From contig JAFAKX010000231.1 of assembly GCA_019234945.1 (NCBI GenBank), positions 1 through 36,824 of the forward strand: DNA of 36,824 nt, given 5' to 3'. How positions within the stretch are numbered: position 1 is the first letter of the stretch; each line of letters opens with the position of its first letter. Source of the stretch: Silvibacterium sp. (GTDB lineage: Bacteria; Acidobacteriota; Terriglobia; Terriglobales; Acidobacteriaceae). A model generated the notes under the pieces. It did not search any database, was not told where the DNA came from, and worked only from the letters and a program-made list of their open reading frames with translations. Below, piece by piece: positions 1-12,015 of this stretch. Both the position numbers and the translations under genes were made by a program.

Positions 1-193
1 AAGTCTTGCAACGCTCTCCTTTGCCGGATCAGCGATGGGCAGCGGTGGCAAGCTGCTGGGAGTGAGTGCGACCGACCCGCTGATCTATCTGGGAGCTTCG
101 CTCTTTCTGACAGGAGTGGCTGCCTTTGCAGCATATATCCCCGCCCGACGCGCAGCCAGCGTCGAACCGATGGAAGCCTTGCGCTACGAGTAA
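1..193 (+). CDS. ABC transporter permease, FtsX/MacB-like (C-terminal fragment)
   Basis: Only the last 63 codons are in the window; the 5' end lies outside. The reading frame starts at base 2 and ends with TAA at 191-193. The visible protein has a hydrophobic stretch ([20 protein letters not shown]) followed by the closing signature [17 protein letters not shown]. That pattern of a last transmembrane helix, an Ala/Arg-rich turn and a final xALRxE is characteristic of FtsX-like permeases of the MacB/ADOP type, which are common in multiple copies in Acidobacteriota. These proteins act in the inner membrane in efflux or lipoprotein-type export with an ABC ATPase. The substrate cannot be told from this fragment. 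Confidence 0.85.
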
Positions 194-252
194 GACACTG
201 TTCCCGGATGCTGAACGAGCGGGTGCAGAGGGCAGGAAGCCAGGCGAGGCGT

Positions 253-322
253 GTTGTTACCGTTCGTGATTCTACCCCCTTACCACCTAGATAAGAACGA
301 GGTAACAACTAACGTAACAACT
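253..322. repeat. Three copies of octamer GTAACAAC beside the tRNA fragment
   Basis: GTAACAAC occurs at 302-309 and 314-321 (12-bp period) on the plus strand, and as its reverse complement at 253-260. Both plus copies extend to GTAACAACT. A separate 8-bp inverted pair, TGCCGATT (334-341) and AATCGGCA (403-410), links this area to the tRNA fragment. Short repeats in mixed orientation next to a tRNA-derived core resemble the arm-type sites of tyrosine-recombinase attachment regions. No integrase gene is present to confirm this, so the function is inferred only. Confidence 0.4.
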
Positions 323-399
323 GCGCCGAAAAATGCCGATTATTGACACTTCAGCAGTGTGGGAAGCCGCTGAAATCATTGTTATTTAGCTATGGGACC

Positions 400-442
400 T
401 GCAATCGGCAGGTCACCGGTTCAAGTCCGGTCGTCGGCTCCA
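400..442 (+). tRNA. tRNA 3' fragment (probably tRNA-Thr), likely att-site remnant
   Basis: The bases fit a tRNA from the anticodon loop to the CCA end. They give the 3' anticodon strand TCGGC, variable loop AGGTC, a perfect T-arm ACCGG-TTCAAGT-CCGGT, the 3' acceptor strand CGTCGGC, discriminator T and CCA. The variable loop and T-arm match bacterial tRNA-Thr as I know it. The matching 5' half (5' anticodon strand GCCGA, D-arm, 5' acceptor strand GCCGACG) is absent upstream, and position 33 would be C instead of the near-universal U. This is therefore a fragment and not a working tRNA. Such 3' copies are what tyrosine integrases leave when an element inserts into a tRNA gene. Confidence 0.65.
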
Positions 443-988
443 GGTTCCTGGAATCAACATCCCCTGACCTGAACCACCGATTTTTCATCGCCTCTGATAT
501 CCCCTTCAAGCCAGCCCCGAGCGCGTCTTGCGCGGAGATTTGTCCACCTCTCAGCGAGGTCTTGTCGGTTGTATTGAGCGACGCAAATTTGCTTGTCGTT
601 TGGCGCTCTCGGGGGTACACTCGCTTCCGCGCCGATTCCGAATCCCGAGTTGAAAAGTAAAGGTTGAGCAATCGAATCGGCTTCGAACTGATCTTCTTCG
701 AACTGGTCTCCGCGGCGAGCATCGTGTTTGCGACGCCGATCGATCTCGCTCGAACTGCCGTGAGTGATGGGTCTTGTGATACAGACCCAGCGAACGCAAT
801 CGAAGTATAACTTCTGTCGTGCCGGGATGAGGGGGATGCGCGTGGTTTGGACAACTGCCACCGTCGCTCAATTGTTCGAACAGAAAGCTTGTGTCTTTGG
901 GATTGGTCCGCCGTGAATCCGGGGACGCCAGGCTCTCTATGGCCTGGCATCGCTGTACGAGGATCGGTGAGACCGAAGAGGTGACATC

Positions 989-2320
989 GTGATCGTCTAT
1001 GACAGCACCTTCACCGGAATGAATCCTGGGCTCTGCCAGCGGCTGAAAGCGATGGCGCCGGAACTTGCGGGGTTCGGCTGTAACGCTGTCAAATTTCCGC
1101 CTTTTTTGAACACGAGAAACCCGTTCAGTCTGGGCTATGACCCCCGCACCGACCTGGACGTCGGTCAGTGGGAGCCATTGCACATCACCGGAAGCGCCAC
1201 TGACTTGAAGGGCGCGATCGATACCCTGCACCAACACGGGATTCTCGTGATTCAGGACTGGGTAAACCGGCAATACGGCGGTCCGGCGCCCCTCAACGAG
1301 CGCGGTTCCCGGGGAAGGGTGGATCCTGCGCTGTTTCCGAAACCGCAATCATGCTTCTCCCCGCCAAAGCCCCGTGATACTCCATTTGCTCGCGATGACG
1401 GCCCGAATGACGGGATTCTTGCCAGCTATCAGCACTCCGGCGGTTACATGTTGAACGGGAAGATTCAGGCGGGGAAATGGCAACAGGATGTGCTTGGCAT
1501 CGATGGCTTTCGTCTCGATGAAGCGAAGGGGCTGCCGCCCTCGGTTGCCTCCGCCTTCGCGCGGGCCCGGCCGGGATTGAACTACGCCGAGGTCTTCGAT
1601 GGAGACCCGGCGGTGCTGGGTCAATATGTCGGTGAGACCGGCATGGCCGTCCTCGACTTCACGCGGCATTATGCATATCGCGCGGTATCGCAGGGCGCGC
1701 CGCTTTCCACGCTGGTTGGAAATGGCTTTTGCTTCCGCGATCCGGACCACGCCTACATCTACGTCGAGTCGAATGATACGGACGGCCCCGGCGGCATAGT
1801 GAATAACAAGCTCTGGTTCTACCTTGACGCCCTCACCATGCCCTGCAAAGGAGCGCTGATCTTCGCCAAGGATTACGAGGTCTATGGGCTGGCCGCGCCG
1901 ATCAGAAACATGATGTGGATCGGAACAACCTTCGCGATCGGCAAGCTGGCCTGGGAGTATGTCGATAACTCGCTGCTCTGCTGGAGCCGCGATGGCAATG
2001 GAGGCTCTACCTGGAGTGGAGGCCTCTTCTGCGGCTACAGTTCTGATCCCATCAACCATCGCAGCGAATGGATACACACGCCGTTTGGTCCGAACCGTCA
2101 CCTTCACGACTACGCAGGACACGGACCCGATGTTTGGACGAATCGTGACGGCTGGGCTTTTTTCACCTTTGGCCCCAACGTGTCTGGCTCTGCGCAGAAC
2201 TATGTTGCATATGCGCCTGCGGGCGTTCAGTTCAACATCCCGACTCCGCCCAGAGGTCGCGAGGGCAGCGGCCGGTTCACCGATTTCACATCCATTACTG
2301 TTCGCCATACCGGACCCTGA
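989..2320 (+). CDS. GH13 alpha-amylase-like protein
   Basis: A 443-residue protein with the conserved regions of the alpha-amylase (GH13) barrel. Region I is read at IQDWVNRQ (D90), region II at GFRLDEAK (nucleophile D177), region III at NYAEVFDG (acid/base E201) and region IV at ESNDTD (D263). These are the three catalytic carboxylates expected for hydrolysis or transfer at alpha-1,4-glucosidic bonds. The His that usually ends region I is replaced by Gln. The start is GTG at 989, preceded by an AGAGG ribosome site; an in-frame stop at 968-970 excludes a longer N-terminus, so there is no signal peptide even though most family members are secreted. Seventy-six bases separate it from the next gene, a secreted propeller-like protein, so the two may be co-transcribed. 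The family call is firm; substrate unknown. Confidence 0.85.
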   Translation: MIVYDSTFTGMNPGLCQRLKAMAPELAGFGCNAVKFPPFLNTRNPFSLGYDPRTDLDVGQWEPLHITGSATDLKGAIDTLHQHGILVIQDWVNRQYGGPAPLNERGSRGRVDPALFPKPQSCFSPPKPRDTPFARDDGPNDGILASYQHSGGYMLNGKIQAGKWQQDVLGIDGFRLDEAKGLPPSVASAFARARPGLNYAEVFDGDPAVLGQYVGETGMAVLDFTRHYAYRAVSQGAPLSTLVGNGFCFRDPDHAYIYVESNDTDGPGGIVNNKLWFYLDALTMPCKGALIFAKDYEVYGLAAPIRNMMWIGTTFAIGKLAWEYVDNSLLCWSRDGNGGSTWSGGLFCGYSSDPINHRSEWIHTPFGPNRHLHDYAGHGPDVWTNRDGWAFFTFGPNVSGSAQNYVAYAPAGVQFNIPTPPRGREGSGRFTDFTSITVRHTGP

Positions 2321-2396
2321 GATCCCGTCGGCCTCCATCACCCTTGAATCTCCAGCATCAGGTGCAGCACGAACCCAGGCGTACGAGAGGAATTCG

Positions 2397-4310
2397 ATGA
2401 AGAGAAATTTGTTCGTCGTAACCGCTTATTCGATTCTCGCTTTGGCGTTACACGCTCAGCAGATGCAGCCATGGCTCACGCGCAGTGCTGATTCCGCGCG
2501 GTCCGGCTGGAACAGCCAGGAGACCGTATTGACGCAGGCAAGTGTCAAAACAAAGGGAGCCTCGTTCAAAACGGTCGTGCCGCTCGTTGGCGATGCCCGT
2601 GGCATGGAGGCCCAGCCGCTGATCCTGCCAGGTGTAACGACTTCGCGAGGGGTGCGGGACGTAATGGTGCTCCCCAGCATGGCCGACGTCGTGCGGGGCG
2701 TGGATGCGCATGACGGCTCAGGCATCTGGCAGGTCACCCTGGGTACGCCCATCCAGGGAAGCGGAGCCATCGACTTCCACAAGATCAATGACAAGTGGGG
2801 CTGTCTGAGCACTGGAGTCATTGATCCGGATAGAGCCCGCTATTACCAGGTCTGCTGGGTATCTCCGGACAACAGCCAGAATCCGGGCACAGCGCGTTAC
2901 ATGATGTACGTGCTCAATGTCGCCGACGGCTCCCAGGTCGTACCTCCGGTGCTCATCGATGGGCTGGACTTCAACAAGGAGATGCGGAAGGCGCGAAGCT
3001 CGGCCGTCCTCATCACTCAGAACGGAGTCAAAACAGTCCTTCAATGCACCGGCTCCGTGCAAGAGACTACCAATGGGCCCTCCGGATACTGTTTCGCGTT
3101 CGATGTCGCGACTAACAAAGTGACGACAATGATGGCTACAAGCAACAGGAGAGGTGTCGGCATCTGGATGGCGGGCTCGGGCCTGGCTTGCGATTCAAAC
3201 CAGGATTGCTATGCGATCACCGGCAACGGTGCGTTTGACGGCGTCAGCCAGTGGGGCGAGAGTTTCATCAAGCTTCGATACACACCGCCCAAAGGAGGCG
3301 CGGCCGCCTCTCTCAAAGTAGTTGATAACTGGACTCCATGGACCGATGCGGCTCGGTCAGGAGCCGCGAATGCCCCGGCGGTGCCGCAGTTGGCGGGCGA
3401 GTCGATGGAGTCGGAAGCGATCAGGCCGGTCGGCGCGGGTATGTCGATGCCAATGGCCGACGCCCGCGTTGAAGCAAGAAAAAATGCTCAGGGCCAGCCC
3501 GTCCTGCTGGTGTGGCCACAGCTCTCGGCTGCGGCACGAGCCGATCAGGATCTCGGTTCCGGCGGCGTGGCCTATATTGCCGAACTCAACATCGTTTGCG
3601 GCGGTGGCAAGGATGGGCTGCTCTACTGCCTGCACGCAGACCACATGGGAGGAACAAAGCCCTCCGACTTTGCGAATGCGAAGGCGAACTGTGCCAAGCT
3701 TGTCGGCGGAACACCAGTCTGGGGCACGATGGATCCCGGCAAGGATTCCCAGGGTAACGGCATCGAGCAGTGCCCGCAAGACCCGCGAAACCTGAATTTC
3801 CTCCCCTTTGGCGACACCGCGCATATGCACTCCCCGCCGGTTGTCATGTTTGACCCGCTTCTGAATGCCTGGACAATCTTCGTATGGGGCGAGAACCAGC
3901 AGCTTCACAAATGGAAGCTGAGCGCGAACGCCGCGCCGCAATTCGTTGCGGAGAGCCGCGAGTTTGCTTCACCGGATGTGCGGGGTAATACTCCAGGCGG
4001 AATGCCCGGCGGTTTCTGTGCCGGATCGAGCAATGGACGGGATCCCAACAGCTACCTGCTCGTCTGCGCGGTGCCTCGCGGCGACGCAAATGCAAACCTG
4101 GTGCAGGGACACATCGTGATCTATGACCCTGTGCACATCACCCAGGACGGATTCCTGTCGAAGCTGTGGGACTCCGACGATTGGGGCTGGTCGGGTGCGG
4201 GGGCAGACGCAAAATACCGCTTCTTTAATAAGTTCATGCCTCCGGTTATCGACGGAGGCGAAATCATACTACCCAATTATGCCGGAGGTGTCTTGATCAT
4301 CGGGCAGTAG
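2397..4310 (+). CDS. Secreted PQQ/quinoprotein-like beta-propeller protein
   Basis: A 637-residue protein. The ATG at 2397 is chosen because it gives a clean signal peptide (MKRNLFVV, hydrophobic core to about residue 20, cleavage near LHA-QQ) and follows a GAGAGG ribosome site; longer in-frame starts would overlap the GH13 gene. The mature protein shows blade-like segments: short beta-rich stretches ending in Asp/Gly turns, for example DAHDGSGIWQVTLGTP, YMMYVLNVADGSQ and YCFAFDVATN. Such alternating blade motifs are typical of PQQ-dependent dehydrogenase-like and BamB-like propellers. I cannot locate the cofactor-binding Trp motif pattern clearly, nor a cytochrome c CxxCH motif, so catalytic activity is uncertain. 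It probably acts in the periplasm or outside the cell. It could equally be a structural propeller without enzyme activity. Confidence 0.6.
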   Translation: MKRNLFVVTAYSILALALHAQQMQPWLTRSADSARSGWNSQETVLTQASVKTKGASFKTVVPLVGDARGMEAQPLILPGVTTSRGVRDVMVLPSMADVVRGVDAHDGSGIWQVTLGTPIQGSGAIDFHKINDKWGCLSTGVIDPDRARYYQVCWVSPDNSQNPGTARYMMYVLNVADGSQVVPPVLIDGLDFNKEMRKARSSAVLITQNGVKTVLQCTGSVQETTNGPSGYCFAFDVATNKVTTMMATSNRRGVGIWMAGSGLACDSNQDCYAITGNGAFDGVSQWGESFIKLRYTPPKGGAAASLKVVDNWTPWTDAARSGAANAPAVPQLAGESMESEAIRPVGAGMSMPMADARVEARKNAQGQPVLLVWPQLSAAARADQDLGSGGVAYIAELNIVCGGGKDGLLYCLHADHMGGTKPSDFANAKANCAKLVGGTPVWGTMDPGKDSQGNGIEQCPQDPRNLNFLPFGDTAHMHSPPVVMFDPLLNAWTIFVWGENQQLHKWKLSANAAPQFVAESREFASPDVRGNTPGGMPGGFCAGSSNGRDPNSYLLVCAVPRGDANANLVQGHIVIYDPVHITQDGFLSKLWDSDDWGWSGAGADAKYRFFNKFMPPVIDGGEIILPNYAGGVLIIGQ

Positions 4311-4632
4311 TAATTAGCCGCTATCATTCCCAAAGCTTCCAGCCGTAACAGCATTGGCGATGAAATCGCTGTATATTTGGCCCCCGATAGGTTTATAGTG
4401 CGCTTTACTATATAGTGCGCTGTGACGCGGTGACGATGTAAAGCTTTCTGTTGGCTTCGTCACTATGGGGTATGCTCCTACGCGGTGTTTCCGCGTCGTT
4501 AATTGCGGAATTTCACAGGCTCGGAGCTGGGTGGACCATTCTCGCCTGCCTTGACGGCTTCCAGGTAAATGCTCTCTTCGTTCCTTTCTGAGCCAGGTCC
4601 CCTAGTTCATCCGAGCCAGAGGGGAATTCGCT
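4311..4632. promoter_or_regulatory. Upstream region of the large membrane protein, with 11-bp direct repeat
   Basis: This 322-base gap contains no gene. It carries a perfect direct repeat TATAGTGCGCT at 4394-4404 and 4411-4421, a 17-bp period, just over 200 bases before the next start codon. Closely spaced direct repeats of this size are commonly operator half-sites for a dimeric regulator, but no regulator can be named. I see no convincing sigma-70 promoter with both hexamers correctly spaced. Confidence 0.35.
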
Positions 4633-7600
4633 GTGAACAAAACTACAGGCGCGACGTTAAGCATTCTTGCTCTGGCGGCACTCTTATTTCGTACCCCGGG
4701 ATTCGTTTCTACAGGGCATGAGCCTTCCGGTAACCGCCCTGCTGGGGCTTCCCGTCAAGCGGGTAAGAAGGTCACAGGCGAGGGGCCCTGGAATGCATCC
4801 TGCGAGTATTGGGCGCCTGCCAGGCCGGCGGTTGAGGCAACTTCCGAAGCCGGGAATGCCGCGGCTGCTGCTTCAGAAGAAGGCACATCCGAATGCGGGG
4901 ATGACCTGCTGGGACGTTGGGGCCTGCCCGGCGCGGAGATTAAGCCTGATATCCACGCGCTGATTGCCATTGTGCCCGATCCTGCGCGGACGAACATGGC
5001 GCTCCAGTTCGATCGAATGATGGATGCGCTGATGGCGGCTGCTGGCGACAACGGATATTTCAGCAGTTACTACTGGCTACCCTGGAAAGAGCAGGCCATC
5101 CGTGTGAAAGATCTGGTGGAAGGCGGAGGTGAAAGGGGAGAAAATTCGACCGGGAGTGACGATGAACCGGGTCTGATCATTCTGAAGCACGTCCCTGGTC
5201 CGTCGGAAAAGGAGTCGGATTCATTTACGCCAGAGCACTTTAATCATGTTGTTTATCTGTTTCTGGTCGGCGAGACACCCACTACGGGAATCAATGGGTT
5301 TCAGATCCAGAAGGCCTTCAGGTATCAGGACGAATTGGCGGCTGCTAACGTAGAATTCGGCCGGTCGATCACAAATCAACCTGATACGCTCGCCATCATA
5401 GGTCCGACTTTCACCGGTTCAGCGGCTTCGCTGCGGCAGGCCATAGATACGATGCTTTCGAAGCATCCCGGCATAACCTCCGTGTTTGTAAGCGGGGTTA
5501 CTGGGACAGATTTCGCCGGCAGGCAACTGAATAATGAGGAGGCCAGACAGAAGATCCAGTACAGGTCCTTTGCCTACGATGCAGGTTTTGACCAGGATCG
5601 TCTTTTGGATTTGTTGTGCGAGAGCAGTTCGTCACTCAATCCCATAAGGGTGGCGTTCCTGGTCGAAGATGGCACCAGCTTTGGAGATGCCTCTGCGAGA
5701 CACATCGAAGTGAAAACATCCTCGCGGAAATGCACTGCAAATCGGGATTCCGGCAGTATGCTCCAGATTCGCTTCCCCCGTGAGATCTCTCTGCTGCGAA
5801 ACGCCCAGGCCGCGAATAAACAGACAACCGGCGGCGGAGAGTCAACCGATGCCGCTGGACAGCCACCCAGCCCATATCTTCGGTTTTCGCTCAAGGACTC
5901 GAATACCTACGACAGCGTACCCCACCTCTCCCGCGAAAACACGCCTCTTTCCCAGGAAGCACAGTTGATGACGATTGCCCATCAGCTGCTGAGATACCAT
6001 GCGCAGTACATCGTCATTTCCGGATCGAATGTCCTCGATGCGATTTTCCTCGCGCAGTTTCTGCATCGGGCCTGTCCGGACGCAAGACTTGTTTTTTATG
6101 TCGGCGACCTGCTTTTTGAGCGCGAAGTCGATAACGTGCCGTTTATCGGATCGCTGACTCTTACACCGTATCCCCTCATCACTAGCGGTGTGACCGCAGG
6201 CAGCAGTTGGAGACGAGCCTACCCGGACTCCAACACTCAGGGATATTTCAATGCCGCAAGCTATATCTTCTGGGACGATCCCTCCCGGTCTGGCAACCAG
6301 AGCGACACGAACGCCTTTCCAAAGCTCGCGGGTTATCGTAATTCCTTAGATCGTGAAGAAAAGAAGGCTCCTCCTCTATGGGTAACTGCCATCGGCAGCG
6401 ACGGTTACTATCCCCTTGGCGTGGCCAGTCCTCAAGCTGAGACCAAGGGCGATCCCGCAATCCTCCCCAAACTCCCGGTTCCTTCCCAAGGCGTACCGCT
6501 GCCGGTTGCTCCGGGGCGGGCGTGGGGCTTTCTTTGTGTTTTGGTTATAGTTGTTTGCCTTTTTCACATTGTTTCGATCTGGAGCGCCGACGTCTGGTCG
6601 CCGTTCACGCGGGAACTCGCAATCAGCCAGAACGATCAGCCGCGCCGTCGCGCCATGTATGTCAACATCGCAACCGCCGTGCTCTTTTGCATGGCATTCG
6701 TGATCGCTCTTCCGCCTTGGGCCACGATCCGGACTGCTCAGCCGGATCTGGCGTCCATGATATTGAGCGGGGCAACAATGCTTATAGGCTTTGCCACGGC
6801 CGTGGCCACAATATCGAGAATCGGCAAATATGTTGGTTGGACGAGCATTTCCCGCCAGCCAGGTATGTCCGGGCTGCTCCATCAGCAACATCTCTATTTC
6901 TTTTTCAATGTGATTGCGTGGGGGACCATGTTATCGGTGCCCTTGTTTTGGTCATATCTGTGCTTCAACGATGGTAGCCCCATACTGATTCCTGGAGTTT
7001 TCAATGTAGGCCTGTTTTTTAGCTTTCGCTGTGTCCACGCGTGGAGTGATGTTTCTCCGCTTATGCCTGTCCTTCTATTGCTCTTTAGCTGGTATCTATG
7101 GGCCTTTTTCAGTACCTGGCGGCTCCGGTTTTCCGACAACAGCAGACCCATGCTTCCGCGGCGTCTGAATCTTGGCACAACCTATCCGCTTTTCATTGCT
7201 GACGACGACCTCTGCTCCTGTGCTGACGCACGAGACTCGTGCCTTTACAAAAACATCACCTGTCTGTTGATCACGCGAGAGGTCTTGGGGCGGTTCATAA
7301 AGCCGTTGAGGCGATTCGGGCCTCAAGGAGAAAAGCTGTTCGACGGAGCAATCATTCTGGGATATCTGGCTGTCTTCGCAATGTTCGTTTTCTTCATCCC
7401 GGTGCGTAGTCTGGACACGTTTTTCTGGGCCACAAAAGGCCTGCCAACCCCATATGAGTTCCTTGTCACCGCCCTTTTTTTCCCATTGCTTTTCATCGCC
7501 CTCAGCGCTTGGCTGCGACTGATATTGGTGTGGGGTTCGCTCAGACGAGGACTTCTGCAGAGGCTGGAGAATCTGCCCATTCGCTATGCGTTCAGCAGGC

Positions 7601-8628
7601 TCAGAGGGTCGGGGTGGATGGCGATGTTGCGCCAGGGTGGCATGCATGAACAATGGCGCGACATGGCCCGTTCGACCGAATCGATGCGCCAAATGGTCAA
7701 CGATCCAGACCTGGAGGAATTCATCGCAAACAACGGAAAGGCCGACGCGGCTGAAGAAAATGGCAGTCCCGCGCCCGTGAATAAAGCCGATCAAGGCCCA
7801 GCGCCCAGCCGCTGGTTCCGCTGGGGATGGCACTCGGAAACGGTGGCCCCATCCGTCGTCACGCGCCCTGTCAATCCTCTCAGGACCATCCAAGACCGGC
7901 TCAACGTCTATATCAAGGCATTGTTGGAGCACATAGGTGGTACCCAGCCCGATCCGGATGTTCTTCACGCTGCAAGATGTTTGTCCGGATCCGCCGATCT
8001 TCCTGTCGCGGACAACGATATCGGTGTCGTCTTAATGCATGCCGTCGACAAGAGCTACGCAGAGTTCAGCGAGGTGCTTCTGGAAAGAGTTCTGGTTCCC
8101 TATTGGACGGCAAAGCGCAGCACCCTTGTTGAAAGCAACGAAACGGAGGTGACTTCCGAAGGCGAACATTCCGAAGGCAGCGGTCACGAGCCGCAATCGA
8201 AATCGGGCAACGACCCTGCTTACATCCGGGTCGCTGAGGAGTTCCTCGCCATTCGTTATCTGTCACTCATCCGAGTCGTCCTGGTAAACATGCGGTACTT
8301 GCTGTTGTTTGTATGCGCGTCCTTCGTCCTGGCGATCGTGGCCTGGAACTCCTATCCTTTCCAGCCGCGCCAATTTATCGATCTGGTATTCACCTGCATG
8401 CTGGCTCTTCTGGGGTGTGGCGTCATCTGGGTGTTCGCGCAGATGCATCGCGACCCCATCCTCAGCCGCATCACCCACACGAAGCCCAATGAATTGGGAA
8501 TGGAGTTCTATGCCCGGATCATCGCCTTTGGTGCGGTCCCCGTGCTCACTTGGGTGGCTTATCAATTCCCGGGAGTAGGAAGCACCATTTTCAAGTTTCT
8601 GCAGCCCGGCCTTGAGGTCGTTAAATGA
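4633..8628 (+). CDS. Very large polytopic membrane protein with binding-protein-like ectodomain
   Basis: I do not recognise the family as a whole. The 1331-residue protein starts at GTG 4633 behind a GAGGGG site. Residues 1-24 form a signal peptide or anchor. Residues about 105-600 alternate beta strands and helices with sentences such as DTLAIIGPTFTGSAASLRQA, VFVSGVTGTDF and AQYIVISGSNVLDAIFLAQF, resembling type I periplasmic-binding/ANF-receptor folds. Membrane spans follow near 631-650, 676-696, 707-727, 754-776, 804-828, 904-923 and 941-965. A soluble, charged region covers 966-1215, then three more spans lie near 1217-1240, 1249-1270 and 1292-1312. Between spans, residues 861-877 hold four cysteines (C-x-C-x6-C-x6-C), a possible metal site or disulfide knot. 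It stands alone between intergenic gaps. It may be a ligand sensor, receptor or transporter; the function is unknown. Confidence 0.85.
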   Translation: MNKTTGATLSILALAALLFRTPGFVSTGHEPSGNRPAGASRQAGKKVTGEGPWNASCEYWAPARPAVEATSEAGNAAAAASEEGTSECGDDLLGRWGLPGAEIKPDIHALIAIVPDPARTNMALQFDRMMDALMAAAGDNGYFSSYYWLPWKEQAIRVKDLVEGGGERGENSTGSDDEPGLIILKHVPGPSEKESDSFTPEHFNHVVYLFLVGETPTTGINGFQIQKAFRYQDELAAANVEFGRSITNQPDTLAIIGPTFTGSAASLRQAIDTMLSKHPGITSVFVSGVTGTDFAGRQLNNEEARQKIQYRSFAYDAGFDQDRLLDLLCESSSSLNPIRVAFLVEDGTSFGDASARHIEVKTSSRKCTANRDSGSMLQIRFPREISLLRNAQAANKQTTGGGESTDAAGQPPSPYLRFSLKDSNTYDSVPHLSRENTPLSQEAQLMTIAHQLLRYHAQYIVISGSNVLDAIFLAQFLHRACPDARLVFYVGDLLFEREVDNVPFIGSLTLTPYPLITSGVTAGSSWRRAYPDSNTQGYFNAASYIFWDDPSRSGNQSDTNAFPKLAGYRNSLDREEKKAPPLWVTAIGSDGYYPLGVASPQAETKGDPAILPKLPVPSQGVPLPVAPGRAWGFLCVLVIVVCLFHIVSIWSADVWSPFTRELAISQNDQPRRRAMYVNIATAVLFCMAFVIALPPWATIRTAQPDLASMILSGATMLIGFATAVATISRIGKYVGWTSISRQPGMSGLLHQQHLYFFFNVIAWGTMLSVPLFWSYLCFNDGSPILIPGVFNVGLFFSFRCVHAWSDVSPLMPVLLLLFSWYLWAFFSTWRLRFSDNSRPMLPRRLNLGTTYPLFIADDDLCSCADARDSCLYKNITCLLITREVLGRFIKPLRRFGPQGEKLFDGAIILGYLAVFAMFVFFIPVRSLDTFFWATKGLPTPYEFLVTALFFPLLFIALSAWLRLILVWGSLRRGLLQRLENLPIRYAFSRLRGSGWMAMLRQGGMHEQWRDMARSTESMRQMVNDPDLEEFIANNGKADAAEENGSPAPVNKADQGPAPSRWFRWGWHSETVAPSVVTRPVNPLRTIQDRLNVYIKALLEHIGGTQPDPDVLHAARCLSGSADLPVADNDIGVVLMHAVDKSYAEFSEVLLERVLVPYWTAKRSTLVESNETEVTSEGEHSEGSGHEPQSKSGNDPAYIRVAEEFLAIRYLSLIRVVLVNMRYLLLFVCASFVLAIVAWNSYPFQPRQFIDLVFTCMLALLGCGVIWVFAQMHRDPILSRITHTKPNELGMEFYARIIAFGAVPVLTWVAYQFPGVGSTIFKFLQPGLEVVK

Positions 8629-8668
8629 ATGAATTGCTCGCGGCTCAGCATCGGGCACGTCTGCCTCC

Positions 8669-8687
8669 TCCGAGTTAGTAGCTCGGA
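8669..8687 (+). terminator. Weak stem-loop after the large membrane protein gene
   Basis: TCCGAG at 8669-8674 pairs with CTCGGA at 8682-8687 around a 7-base loop, about 40 bases after the stop codon. No run of T follows, so it is at best a weak intrinsic terminator or an RNA 3'-end stabiliser. Confidence 0.25.
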
Positions 8688-8812
8688 AGAAGAATTTCGG
8701 AGAACCATCCGATATATAGGCTGTTTGCCGTCCCGAATCAGAATTGATACCTGTTTATCCACTGAAATTTCATAATCCTCCCCTTGTGCCCGCCTACGAA
8801 CACACCGATAAT

Positions 8813-8852
8813 CGCGCTTAGATACGCGTTCAGATCGATACGCGCTTAGATA
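8813..8852 (+). repeat. 12-bp direct repeat upstream of the MerR-TPR gene
   Basis: CGCGCTTAGATA is present at 8813-8824 and again at 8841-8852 with a related CGATACGCG word between them. The second copy ends about 36 bases before the GTG start at 8888. The position suits operator sites, possibly for autoregulation by the MerR-type protein just downstream, though classical MerR operators are inverted rather than direct repeats. Confidence 0.4.
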
Positions 8853-8887
8853 TTAGGAGTGACGGTCCTCTTACGAGCACAAATACT

Positions 8888-9790
8888 GTGACCCTGTACA
8901 GCCGTCAGGATGTCCTTCGCATACTTCGCATCCGCGCCAAACAACTCCGAGCGTGGGAGCGAGCCGGTTTGGTTTCCTTCTCTGACACTTACTCCTTCCA
9001 AGACCTCGTTCAGCTACGCAAGCTCCGGGACCTGCGAGCGACGCGTCTATCAGCCTCCAGCATCCGCGCCAGCGTCCACGCCATGCAGGCCGTCTCCGGC
9101 ATGATCAACCCGCTCCTCGAAGCCGGAACCGCGAAAAAGGGCTCGCGCCTTCTCTTCCGCCATTCCGGTGCCGTCATGGAGCCCATCACGCGCCAGTTCG
9201 TCTTCGACTTTGAGGGCCACCAGGACCTCGTCCGCGCAGAAAACCAGGGGATGACCCAGTCACAGCTTGTCGCTCGCACCGGCGATCTGTTCCTCGAAGC
9301 GGTTCGCTGCGAAGAAGCCGGTAAGAAGCTCGAGGCAGTCGAGATCTACCAGAACATCCTCCGGCTCGATCCCGGCCACGCTCCCGCGGCCATCAATCTT
9401 GGAACTATCCTCTACAACCAGCGCCAGTTCGCCGCTGCCGAGCGCCTCTACCGTCAGGCCGCCGAAGCCGATGCCAATTACGCTCTGGCCTGGTTCGACC
9501 TCGGCAACGTGCTCGACGAGCTGCAGCGCCTATCCGAGGCCGTCGAGGCGTACCGCAACGCCATCCGCCTTGCCCCCGGATACGCCGACGCCCACTACAA
9601 CCTGGCTCTCGCCTACGAGCGCCAGAACGAGCGCCGCAAGGCTCTTCGGCACTGGGTCGCCTATCTCAAGCTCGACCCCATCGGCCCCTGGGCTAACCAC
9701 GCCCGCGGCCAGACCCGGAAGATCCTCGACCGCGAGAAGCTCACCATCGTCTACCGCAGCCCCCGCGCTATCCGGTTAGAACCTCGCTGA
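8888..9790 (+). CDS. MerR-family HTH protein with C-terminal TPR repeats
   Basis: A 300-residue protein from GTG 8888. Residues 1-75 form a winged-helix MerR domain: YSRQDVLRILRIRAKQLRAWERAGLV, then the wing and YSFQDLVQLRKLRDLRA. Residues about 131-266 form four TPR units (near 131-164, 165-198, 199-232 and 233-266), each ending in the usual xLDP, EADA or LAPG turn. Ordinary MerR activators carry a dimerisation coiled coil and a small ligand- or metal-binding tail of about 130-150 residues in total; here that tail is replaced by TPRs, implying that the regulator is controlled by protein-protein contact. The gene is single and converges on the aldo/keto reductase with 29 bases between stops. 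The domain assignment is firm; targets unknown. Confidence 0.85.
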   Translation: MTLYSRQDVLRILRIRAKQLRAWERAGLVSFSDTYSFQDLVQLRKLRDLRATRLSASSIRASVHAMQAVSGMINPLLEAGTAKKGSRLLFRHSGAVMEPITRQFVFDFEGHQDLVRAENQGMTQSQLVARTGDLFLEAVRCEEAGKKLEAVEIYQNILRLDPGHAPAAINLGTILYNQRQFAAAERLYRQAAEADANYALAWFDLGNVLDELQRLSEAVEAYRNAIRLAPGYADAHYNLALAYERQNERRKALRHWVAYLKLDPIGPWANHARGQTRKILDREKLTIVYRSPRAIRLEPR

Positions 9791-9819
9791 GGGCGCCGGC
9801 CCCCAGCTGCCAGCATCCG

Positions 9820-10920
<1,101 letters not shown>

Positions 10921-11316
10921 CTATCTCCGGTACTGCTCGTCGCTCACCTGTTCCATCCACTCGACAACCTTCCCATCGAGCTTTTCCTGAATTGCGATGT
11001 GCGTCATCGCCGTCTTCGAAGTCGCGCCATGCCAGTGCTTCTCGCCCGGCGAAAACCACACCACGTCGCCCGGCCGGATCTCTTCGACCGGCCCTCCTTC
11101 GCGCTGCGCCCAGCCGCATCCCGCAGTCACGATCAGCGTCTGCCCCAGCGGATGTGTATGCCACGCGGTCCTCGCTCCCGGCTCAAACGTGACGCTCGCA
11201 CCTTGAACAAGCGCCGGCTCCGGCGCCTGAAACAGCGGATCGATCCGCACCGCACCCGTGAACCACTCCGCCGGTCCCTTACCGGAAGCCTGCGTCCCGG
11301 CTCTCTTGATCTCCAT
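10921..11316 (-). CDS. Small cupin-domain protein
   Basis: A 131-residue single-domain cupin (RmlC-like jelly roll). Cupin motif 1 is seen in [21 protein letters not shown], with the HxH metal ligands in WHTHP. Motif 2 follows in [19 protein letters not shown], supplying the third His. Proteins of this type (often annotated as quercetin-dioxygenase-like or with carboxymuconolactone decarboxylases) bind a divalent metal, and many have no proven reaction. The start is ATG at 11316, 21 bases after the DUF2255 gene stop, consistent with one operon. An isomerase or metal-buffering role is possible; the substrate is unknown. Confidence 0.88.
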
Positions 11317-11337
11317 CTGCTCTGTCTCCTAACTGAC

Positions 11338-11751
11338 TCACGCACCCGCATCGCGCGGCATAATGCGCACCGTTGCTGCGCGTGCTCGCTTCCCGATCAT
11401 CGGGCTGAGGTAAGGGCTGCTGTGGTACTTCTCCCGATATGCATCGTCGATGCGACTATTCAGCCGATCGTTGACCCGTCCTTCTACCGGCTCAAAGGTG
11501 ACCTCCTTCGTCATGCCGGCAGCCCTGATCCGCCCCGCCTTCTGTCGCACCGCCGCCTTGTACCAGCGGGACTCCTGCCCGTTGTAGCCGCGCGCATAGA
11601 GCGCATCGCCAACCGCAACCGACCATATCCACGTAGGAGTGCCATACGTCACGCCGTCCTCGCGGAATGGCGAGATATGCAAATCATCCGCCTGAGCGAT
11701 CTTACGGAGTTCCTCTTTCGGCCAGGCCACTCGTTCTGTCGTATTGCTCAT
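11338..11751 (-). CDS. DUF2255 family protein
   Basis: A 137-residue soluble protein of the DUF2255 family. The characteristic core is present: W-x9-I-AQADDLHISPFREDGVTYGTPTWIW, then the DALYARGYNGQESRWYKAAV segment and a late DDAYREKYHSSPYLSPMI segment. No function is established for the family; it often sits beside oxidoreductases, as here, and its fold is thought to be related to flavin- or nitroreductase-type split barrels, a relation I recall only loosely. It lies 24 bases downstream of the tautomerase gene in the same operon. No signal peptide, so it acts in the cytosol. Confidence 0.85.
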   Translation of the reverse strand: MSNTTERVAWPKEELRKIAQADDLHISPFREDGVTYGTPTWIWSVAVGDALYARGYNGQESRWYKAAVRQKAGRIRAAGMTKEVTFEPVEGRVNDRLNSRIDDAYREKYHSSPYLSPMIGKRARAATVRIMPRDAGA

Positions 11752-11775
11752 TGCAATTGTCCTTTGCTGGTGCTG

Positions 11776-12015
11776 CTATTCATAATCCGACGGCTCATAC
11801 CCGGGTTTCTTGTAGAGCTTGTCCCATTGGCCTTGAATTTCTGGTTTGTAGACCTTCTCTGTCCAATCCTGCGGTTTGACTTCTTCGATCGCTACCGAAA
11901 CCGACTCTTCTCCTGAATTCAGAATGGACATGACGTCCTTCATGATTGCTTCGGCGAGTCGACTCTTCTGCTCTTCCGACCTACCGGGAAAAAGCTTTAC
12001 GAGGACATGCGGCAT
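11776..12015 (-). CDS. 4-oxalocrotonate tautomerase-like enzyme
   Basis: A 79-residue protein of the tautomerase superfamily. After removal of the initiator Met the chain begins with Pro ([16 protein letters not shown]), the general base that defines the family. The typical beta-alpha-beta layout follows, with [17 protein letters not shown] as the helix and [13 protein letters not shown] as the second strand. Usual family members are 60-80 residues and work as hexamers or trimers that interconvert keto and enol forms. It lies in the redox operon between the lipocalin-like and DUF2255 genes (51 and 24 bases away). The actual substrate is unknown. Confidence 0.9.

Follow-up and report, generated by a model that had tools for sequence, protein, structure and literature searches.

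The type I periplasmic-binding-protein (PBP) fold, which is that of LivJ, LivK and AmiC, serves many receptors, including class C G-protein-coupled receptors (GPCRs), ionotropic glutamate receptors and AmiC. Receptors that couple a flytrap to several membrane helices occur among eukaryotic class C GPCRs and among ion channels. Class C GPCRs (metabotropic glutamate, calcium-sensing and taste receptors) consist of an outside flytrap followed by seven membrane helices, with a cysteine-rich domain that typically lies between flytrap and membrane and is absent in GABA-B. In bacteria, receptors of the 7TMR type (7TMR-DISM and 7TMR-HD) likewise place an extracellular sensory domain before seven helices, with sensory domains of other kinds and, in many cases, recognisable output domains. 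The PBP type I fold is also used in the envelope by LpoA, an outer-membrane lipoprotein. Here, we describe a gene of Silvibacterium sp. (Acidobacteriota) whose product is predicted to join an ectodomain of this fold to ten membrane helices. The gene occupies positions 4633-8628 of a contig of 36,824 nucleotides (JAFAKX010000231.1, assembly GCA_019234945.1), which is called the window below.

The family protein shares its ectodomain fold with type I PBPs such as LivJ/LivK and AmiC but has no detectable sequence similarity to them, is joined to ten membrane helices, and carries an insertion at residues 399-440. The likeness to class C GPCRs is one of layout only. Foldseek ranks a class C GPCR first for the ectodomain; in contrast to these receptors, the family protein is bacterial, its linker (residues 595-628) has no cysteine, a cytoplasmic region and three more helices follow the first seven, and the membrane part has no significant fold match. 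This is a resemblance of layout, and there is no evidence for common descent of the membrane part. Unlike 7TMR-type receptors, the family has no output domain that could be found with Pfam, and LpoA, for its part, lacks the membrane domain. A 2014 paper (PMC8687355) suggests that receptors of the metabotropic glutamate type may stem from the union of a PBP with a bacteriorhodopsin; for an origin of that kind, as it is put there, the present family is no evidence. We tentatively propose, with somewhat less than even confidence, that this is a bacterial receptor family that reached the class C GPCR plan independently, combining it with a membrane domain of new fold, a cytoplasmic region and three helices, in a scattered minority of Acidobacteriota. 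With a flytrap covalently attached to ten helices whose fold is unmatched, such a bacterial family would take a ligand signal, or a ligand, across the membrane by a novel route, and it would offer a soil phylum a concrete, expressible and testable sensory target.

The gene and the parts of its product are as follows.

4633-8628, + strand: family gene, 1331 aa, PBP type I ectodomain and ten likely membrane helices (homologues in sampled genomes).
4633-4707, + strand: hydrophobic N-terminus (residues 1-25), either a signal peptide or a signal anchor (hydropathy segment 7-25; homologues with the same start).
4951-6432, + strand: predicted type I PBP fold, periplasmic, residues about 107-600 (AlphaFold2 model, Foldseek, VIA).
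5827-5952, + strand: ectodomain insertion, residues 399-440, of low model confidence, with D427 invariant in 24 members (model and alignment).
6517-7569, + strand: first membrane block, seven helices, residues 629-979 (model, hydropathy).
7570-8217, + strand: cytoplasmic helical region of about 216 residues (980-1195), shorter helices, among the most variable parts (model, alignment).
8218-8625, + strand: second membrane block (residues 1196-1331), with three helices followed by one at the C-terminus (model).
8431-8502, + strand: VFAQMHRDxILSRIT-type motif at residues 1267-1290, covering the last part of helix 9 and the loop that leads to helix 10, the most conserved of the regions compared (mean entropy 1.54).

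According to the open reading frame (ORF) list and its translation, the frame starts with GTG and has 1331 codons; the contig (C138) is part of a 3.5-Mb draft genome that is 72% complete. The GTG start is supported by three homologues that begin with MRN/MNK at the matching point: L003 and L049, which have ATG starts, open there, and in L012 the same residues stand at an internal ATG, residue 21 of the L012 frame. Full or partial homologues occur in 6 of 41 kin genomes, 31 of 250 genomes of the same taxonomic family, and 24 of 396 genomes drawn from Acidobacteriota (the own genome is counted each time). Thus, the frame is a real gene, conserved along its length and patchily distributed in the phylum. 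Outside Acidobacteriota the coverage was of close relatives only, by one all-phyla contig scan with the window protein alone as query; the two loci it returned, with 44%-identical relatives, belong to metagenome-assembled genomes labelled Acidobacteria bacterium and Bryobacterales bacterium. Plasmid sequences gave no match to the family protein, and none of nine pattern matches in viral contigs was a relative.

Sequence searches did not place the protein in a described family. The window protein matched no Pfam family and no NCBIfam or PADLOC family. When 19 members were scanned, no transporter or enzyme family and no ABC permease or ATPase domain was found by Pfam or NCBIfam, no PBP family was found by Pfam in any member, and no member matched a PADLOC anti-phage defence family at E ≤ 0.1. 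Pfam or NCBIfam matches confined to single members were set aside as stray; the sole one below E 0.02 was Clc-like, in one of the 19 (E 6.3e-5). Sequence searches of the PDB were uninformative: the rows that ranked best were SmpB (E 0.4), a toxin chain (E 1) and, with the membrane part as query, a designed helical protein (E 0.0033). No description of a bacterial protein of such make-up was found in the titles and abstract starts of the PMC open literature, a source that mostly does not cover subscription papers.

Structure prediction was more informative for the ectodomain. An AlphaFold2 model of residues 95-645, built from 24 aligned members (alignment A3), had a mean predicted local distance difference test score (pLDDT) of 72 and a predicted template modelling score (pTM) of 0.76. 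At E ≤ 0.001 Foldseek matched it to 61 PDB chains, and the best 50 of the 61 are all PBP type I folds by name, including class C GPCR flytraps, the calcium-sensing receptor, LivJ-type proteins, AmiC, NMDA-receptor amino-terminal domains and LpoA. With a second aligner, VIA, the best match was Thermotoga LivK (3td9; Z 21.2, root-mean-square deviation 3.4, 316 residues aligned); AmiC (1pea) scored Z 19.6, and 971 of 1000 chains aligned to the model at Z ≥ 8. At the level of sequence there was no match: hhalign of the ectodomain against E. coli LivJ/LivK gave a probability of 0.2 on a scale of 0 to 100. As modelled, then, residues 95-645 have a type I PBP fold and do not belong to a known PBP family by sequence. 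Invariant or near-invariant positions of the ectodomain include D127, P150, G219, GP-x-x-x-G-S at 257-263, A341/E345/T348, P382, D427, D469/F472 and A541; the invariant polar residues D127, E345, D427 and D469 might form a ligand site. From the family alignments we excluded broken or partial members (L015 after alignment A1, L016, L017, L048, L058 and L061) as well as L087 and L098-L116; neither A3-A5 nor the conservation counts include L051, which is near-identical to L050, and alignment A5 also excluded L002, L049, L053, L063 and L064.

The model of residues 600-1331 (24 members, alignment A4; pLDDT 83, pTM 0.85) contains ten likely membrane helices in a 7+3 layout around the cytoplasmic helical region. 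Spanning helices, assigned by reading helix length in the model together with hydropathy, are 629-651, 670-700, 706-730, 749-778, 810-830, 897-921 and 940-979 in the first block, and 1196-1239, 1246-1273 and 1290-1311 in the second, which ends with a further helix at 1313-1330. By hydropathy, 25 compared members share the order of ectodomain and helices, some of them being only 16-28% identical to the window protein, and the architecture is kept in the phylum. The predicted topology is supported by the distribution of lysine and arginine, which are more frequent in three loops placed in the cytoplasm (19.6, 14.6 and 13.1 per 100 for the loops between helices 3 and 4, 5 and 6, and 7 and 8; 24 members) than in the loops placed outside (7.0, 7.0, 9.4 and 0.0; C-terminus, 6.9); two cytoplasmic loops are not decisive.

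Foldseek found no PDB match to the membrane part at E ≤ 0.001, the top row, TRAP SiaQM (E 0.49, TM-score 0.11), being no match, and there was no significant match among the BFVD viral models. In a second structure search the best of the rows listed were the R2 subunit of ribonucleotide reductase, a soluble helical protein, at Z 6.5, below the noise level of the tool for helical models; GPCR rows, at Z of about 4-5, were also below that stated level. A sub-part of the membrane domain may carry a known fold. The models and searches bear out much of a sequence-only reading made earlier, which had proposed a type I PBP-like ectodomain (the modelled fold is indeed of this kind), about ten spans arranged as seven and three around a charged region of 250 residues (in the model, of about 216), and a protein of no described family; in the libraries searched, no characterised family matched the protein over its full length.

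We consider the chances about even that the family protein is a ligand-responsive membrane receptor with a new membrane part. Three features suggest a receptor in which flytrap closure is relayed to the cytoplasm: the PBP fold, two helices whose length exceeds what the membrane requires, and the fact that no enzyme or ATPase domain was recognised. In such a receptor, the periplasmic type I PBP domain would close on a small ligand, as other Venus-flytrap domains do, and closure would be passed through the first transmembrane helix into the seven-helix block. The long helices at about 940-979 and 1196-1239, which could extend into the cytoplasm, would carry the signal onward to the cytoplasmic helical region and to the conserved cytoplasmic loop between helices 9 and 10, one of which would then act on a partner protein. 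In one genus (f26, g57) a candidate partner is encoded nearby: all 5 of the 5 carrier genomes have, upstream of the family gene and in the same orientation, a gene for a sigma-54 activator that lacks an input domain, at a distance of 18 bp in one genome and 880-950 bp in four, as if it were controlled in trans by the family protein.

Sigma-54 activator genes: L062:6950-8068, L063:6803-7903, L064:6453-7535, L065:11403-12461, L066:6087-7076.

Two-component, extracytoplasmic function (ECF) sigma factor and Ser/Thr kinase genes near some members were not counted as partners, ECF matches being abundant in these genomes among the matches listed.

Several observations weigh against the receptor proposal. 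No ligand site could be mapped on an ectodomain that lacks a sequence match to LivJ/LivK. Conservation is among the lowest in the cytoplasmic helical region, where the output would be expected (mean entropy 2.42, 41% gaps), and in the linker before the membrane (2.46). The strongest conservation is instead at the end of helix 9, in the following loop and in helix 10, a pattern that a pore would fit too; helix 10 with the C-terminus ranks second, at 1.75, and the regions compared other than the motif range from 1.75 to 2.46. The loops between helices 1 and 2 and helices 9 and 10, both placed in the cytoplasm, have 10.6 and 9.9 lysines and arginines per 100, which is no clear positive excess. 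Finally, the link with the sigma-54 activator is confined to one genus, and the gap is 880-950 bp in four of the five genomes.

The conservation pattern favours the main alternative, a transporter or ligand-gated channel with a built-in binding protein, in which the PBP domain would capture a solute and either hand it over to the ten-helix domain or gate that domain. PBP type I domains usually serve transporters, and transporters appear among the Foldseek rows of the membrane part, for instance the TRAP SiaQM row given above, at an E value that makes it no match. We regard this alternative as less likely than a receptor; on the other side, no ATPase, TRAP or other permease domain was recognised by Pfam or NCBIfam, no partner gene is common to most loci, and all fold matches of the membrane part are non-significant. 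The sequence-only reading had offered a sensor or a transporter; this class appears likely, and the family probably represents a sensor or a ligand-controlled channel of a new kind.

No neighbour gene is common to most loci, and several gene families recur near the family gene (matches within 10 kb, in 44 of 47 known carrier genomes; G471, G515 and G597 were left out). Patatin matches lie within this distance in 7 of 118 cases (0.61 expected), in six genera; amylase-like matches in 4 of 26 (0.13 expected); haem peroxidase genes in 3 of 17 (0.09 expected); and C6, a small membrane protein, in 4 of 16 (0.08 expected). These figures are post hoc, the families having been chosen after the neighbourhoods had been seen; they assume random placement and ignore kinship and contig ends. 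One family gene was taken per genome, and two in G104, G162, G449 and G517; split peroxidase, C6 and amylase-like matches were merged by eye, and patatin rows were counted as listed.

Patatin-like genes are next to or near the family gene in L057, L060, L104 and L115. The patatin-like proteins of L060:5687-8398, L104:5069-7765 and L115:5835-8288, of 817-903 aa, adjoin it in three genera, and that of L060 has hydrophobic stretches by eye. The haem peroxidases, of 955-969 aa (L012:7474-10341, L060:12466-15366, L098:2059-4968), are within 3 kb of the family gene; their open frames have 959-982 codons, a length that none of the remaining peroxidase matches of the 44 genomes reaches. C6, of about 353 aa, is found at L012:14777-15838, L049:11978-13033, L057:12428-13489 and L105:17916-18992, and two scanned members of it have no Pfam match. 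Near some members there are also genes that we tentatively label DUF2235-like and lysozyme-like or muramidase. Short-chain dehydrogenase domains end the frames L067:14086-16065 and L068:10385-12055, in which 310-415 extra N-terminal residues belong to no family; these frames may be over-long ORF calls in GC-rich DNA.

The recurrence of patatin, haem peroxidase, C6 and amylase-like genes would fit an envelope scaffold, structural or regulatory, whose PBP-fold domain binds a protein rather than a small ligand and which may bring together lipases, peroxidases and glycan enzymes from neighbouring genes. The PBP-fold domain of LpoA binds a cell-wall synthase, and LpoA (5vbg) is among the significant Foldseek matches (E 4.3e-4). 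We think such a role improbable, given that the enriched families were picked after the neighbourhoods had been seen, that no single neighbour is present at most loci, and that the window contains neither a patatin nor a haem peroxidase gene, the own genome having its patatin matches and its C6 elsewhere than on this contig and lacking any haem peroxidase match; the invariant polar residues of the ectodomain might, moreover, rather be a ligand site. A component of a contractile injection system island, such as a membrane receptor or anchor, is very improbable: tail-sheath matches, present in 20 of 44 carrier genomes, occur in 8 of 36 non-carriers too and lie within 20 kb of the family gene in 2 of 44 carriers, both of one genus (G260 and G348, at about 2 kb, below the Pfam cut-off), counts that weaken the case made by these two genomes, by an amylase-like gene about 2 kb from a sub-threshold sheath match in G609, and by C6 within 6 kb of a sheath match in G111 and G158.

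In the window itself, two genes precede the family gene co-directionally, the second of them separated from it by 322 bp. Together with the remaining features, they are listed below.

989-2320, + strand: amylase-like (GH13-type) gene, 443 aa, tentatively labelled (sub-threshold Pfam matches).
2397-4310, + strand: propeller-like gene, probably secreted, about 637 aa, tentatively labelled (homology to L012; the weak PQQ_2 match of the homologue, E 0.051, is under the cut-off).
4394-4404 and 4411-4421 (span 4394-4421), + strand: two copies of TATAGTGCGCT, an 11-bp direct repeat with a start-to-start distance of 17 bp (sequence).
7213-7263, + strand: cysteine motif C-x-C-x6-C-x6-C at residues 861-877, within a loop assigned to the cytoplasm and without conservation (alignment of 24 members).

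The amylase-like gene encodes the motifs GFRLDEAKG and YAEVFDG, which we presume to be GH13-like. The ORF finder calls the propeller-like gene from 1959; homology to L012 puts its start near 2397. The two genes stay together in the window and in L012, L052 and L053. In G348 and G260 (L052 and L053, both of one other genus) their homologues directly follow the family gene, and in G007 they lie about 6 kb from it on the other strand. The family gene had been said to stand alone, which is only partly true in view of these neighbours.

Two further features singled out from the sequence, the cysteine motif and the upstream direct repeat, are both real and carry no weight. Across 24 members, C861 is found in 1, C863 in 9, C870 in 7 and C877 in 8, and a metal site was rejected for this lack of conservation. 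The copies of TATAGTGCGCT are 239 and 222 bp before the start of the family gene. The 10-base core occurs in none of 22 other members (450 bp upstream read; the 24th member, L002, has only 55 bp upstream and falls outside this comparison), and a conserved operator was rejected, the repeat being found at the window gene only; other 11-bp direct repeats are present upstream in 3 of the 22 (L062, L065 and L067). Rfam gave no match in positions 1-12000, and promoter-like and terminator-like sites in 4250-9000 are no commoner than in shuffles.

Three otherwise long members contain an in-frame TAG, each within CTAG (L015:12568-12570, L058:9499-9501 and L111:8830-8832). No common position was found, and the stops are probably due to decay or sequence error rather than recoding. 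In the alignment, the TAG of L015 falls at window residue 838 and the first stop of L111 at residue 539, the TAG of L058 is not placeable, and L111 also leaves the frame near its end.

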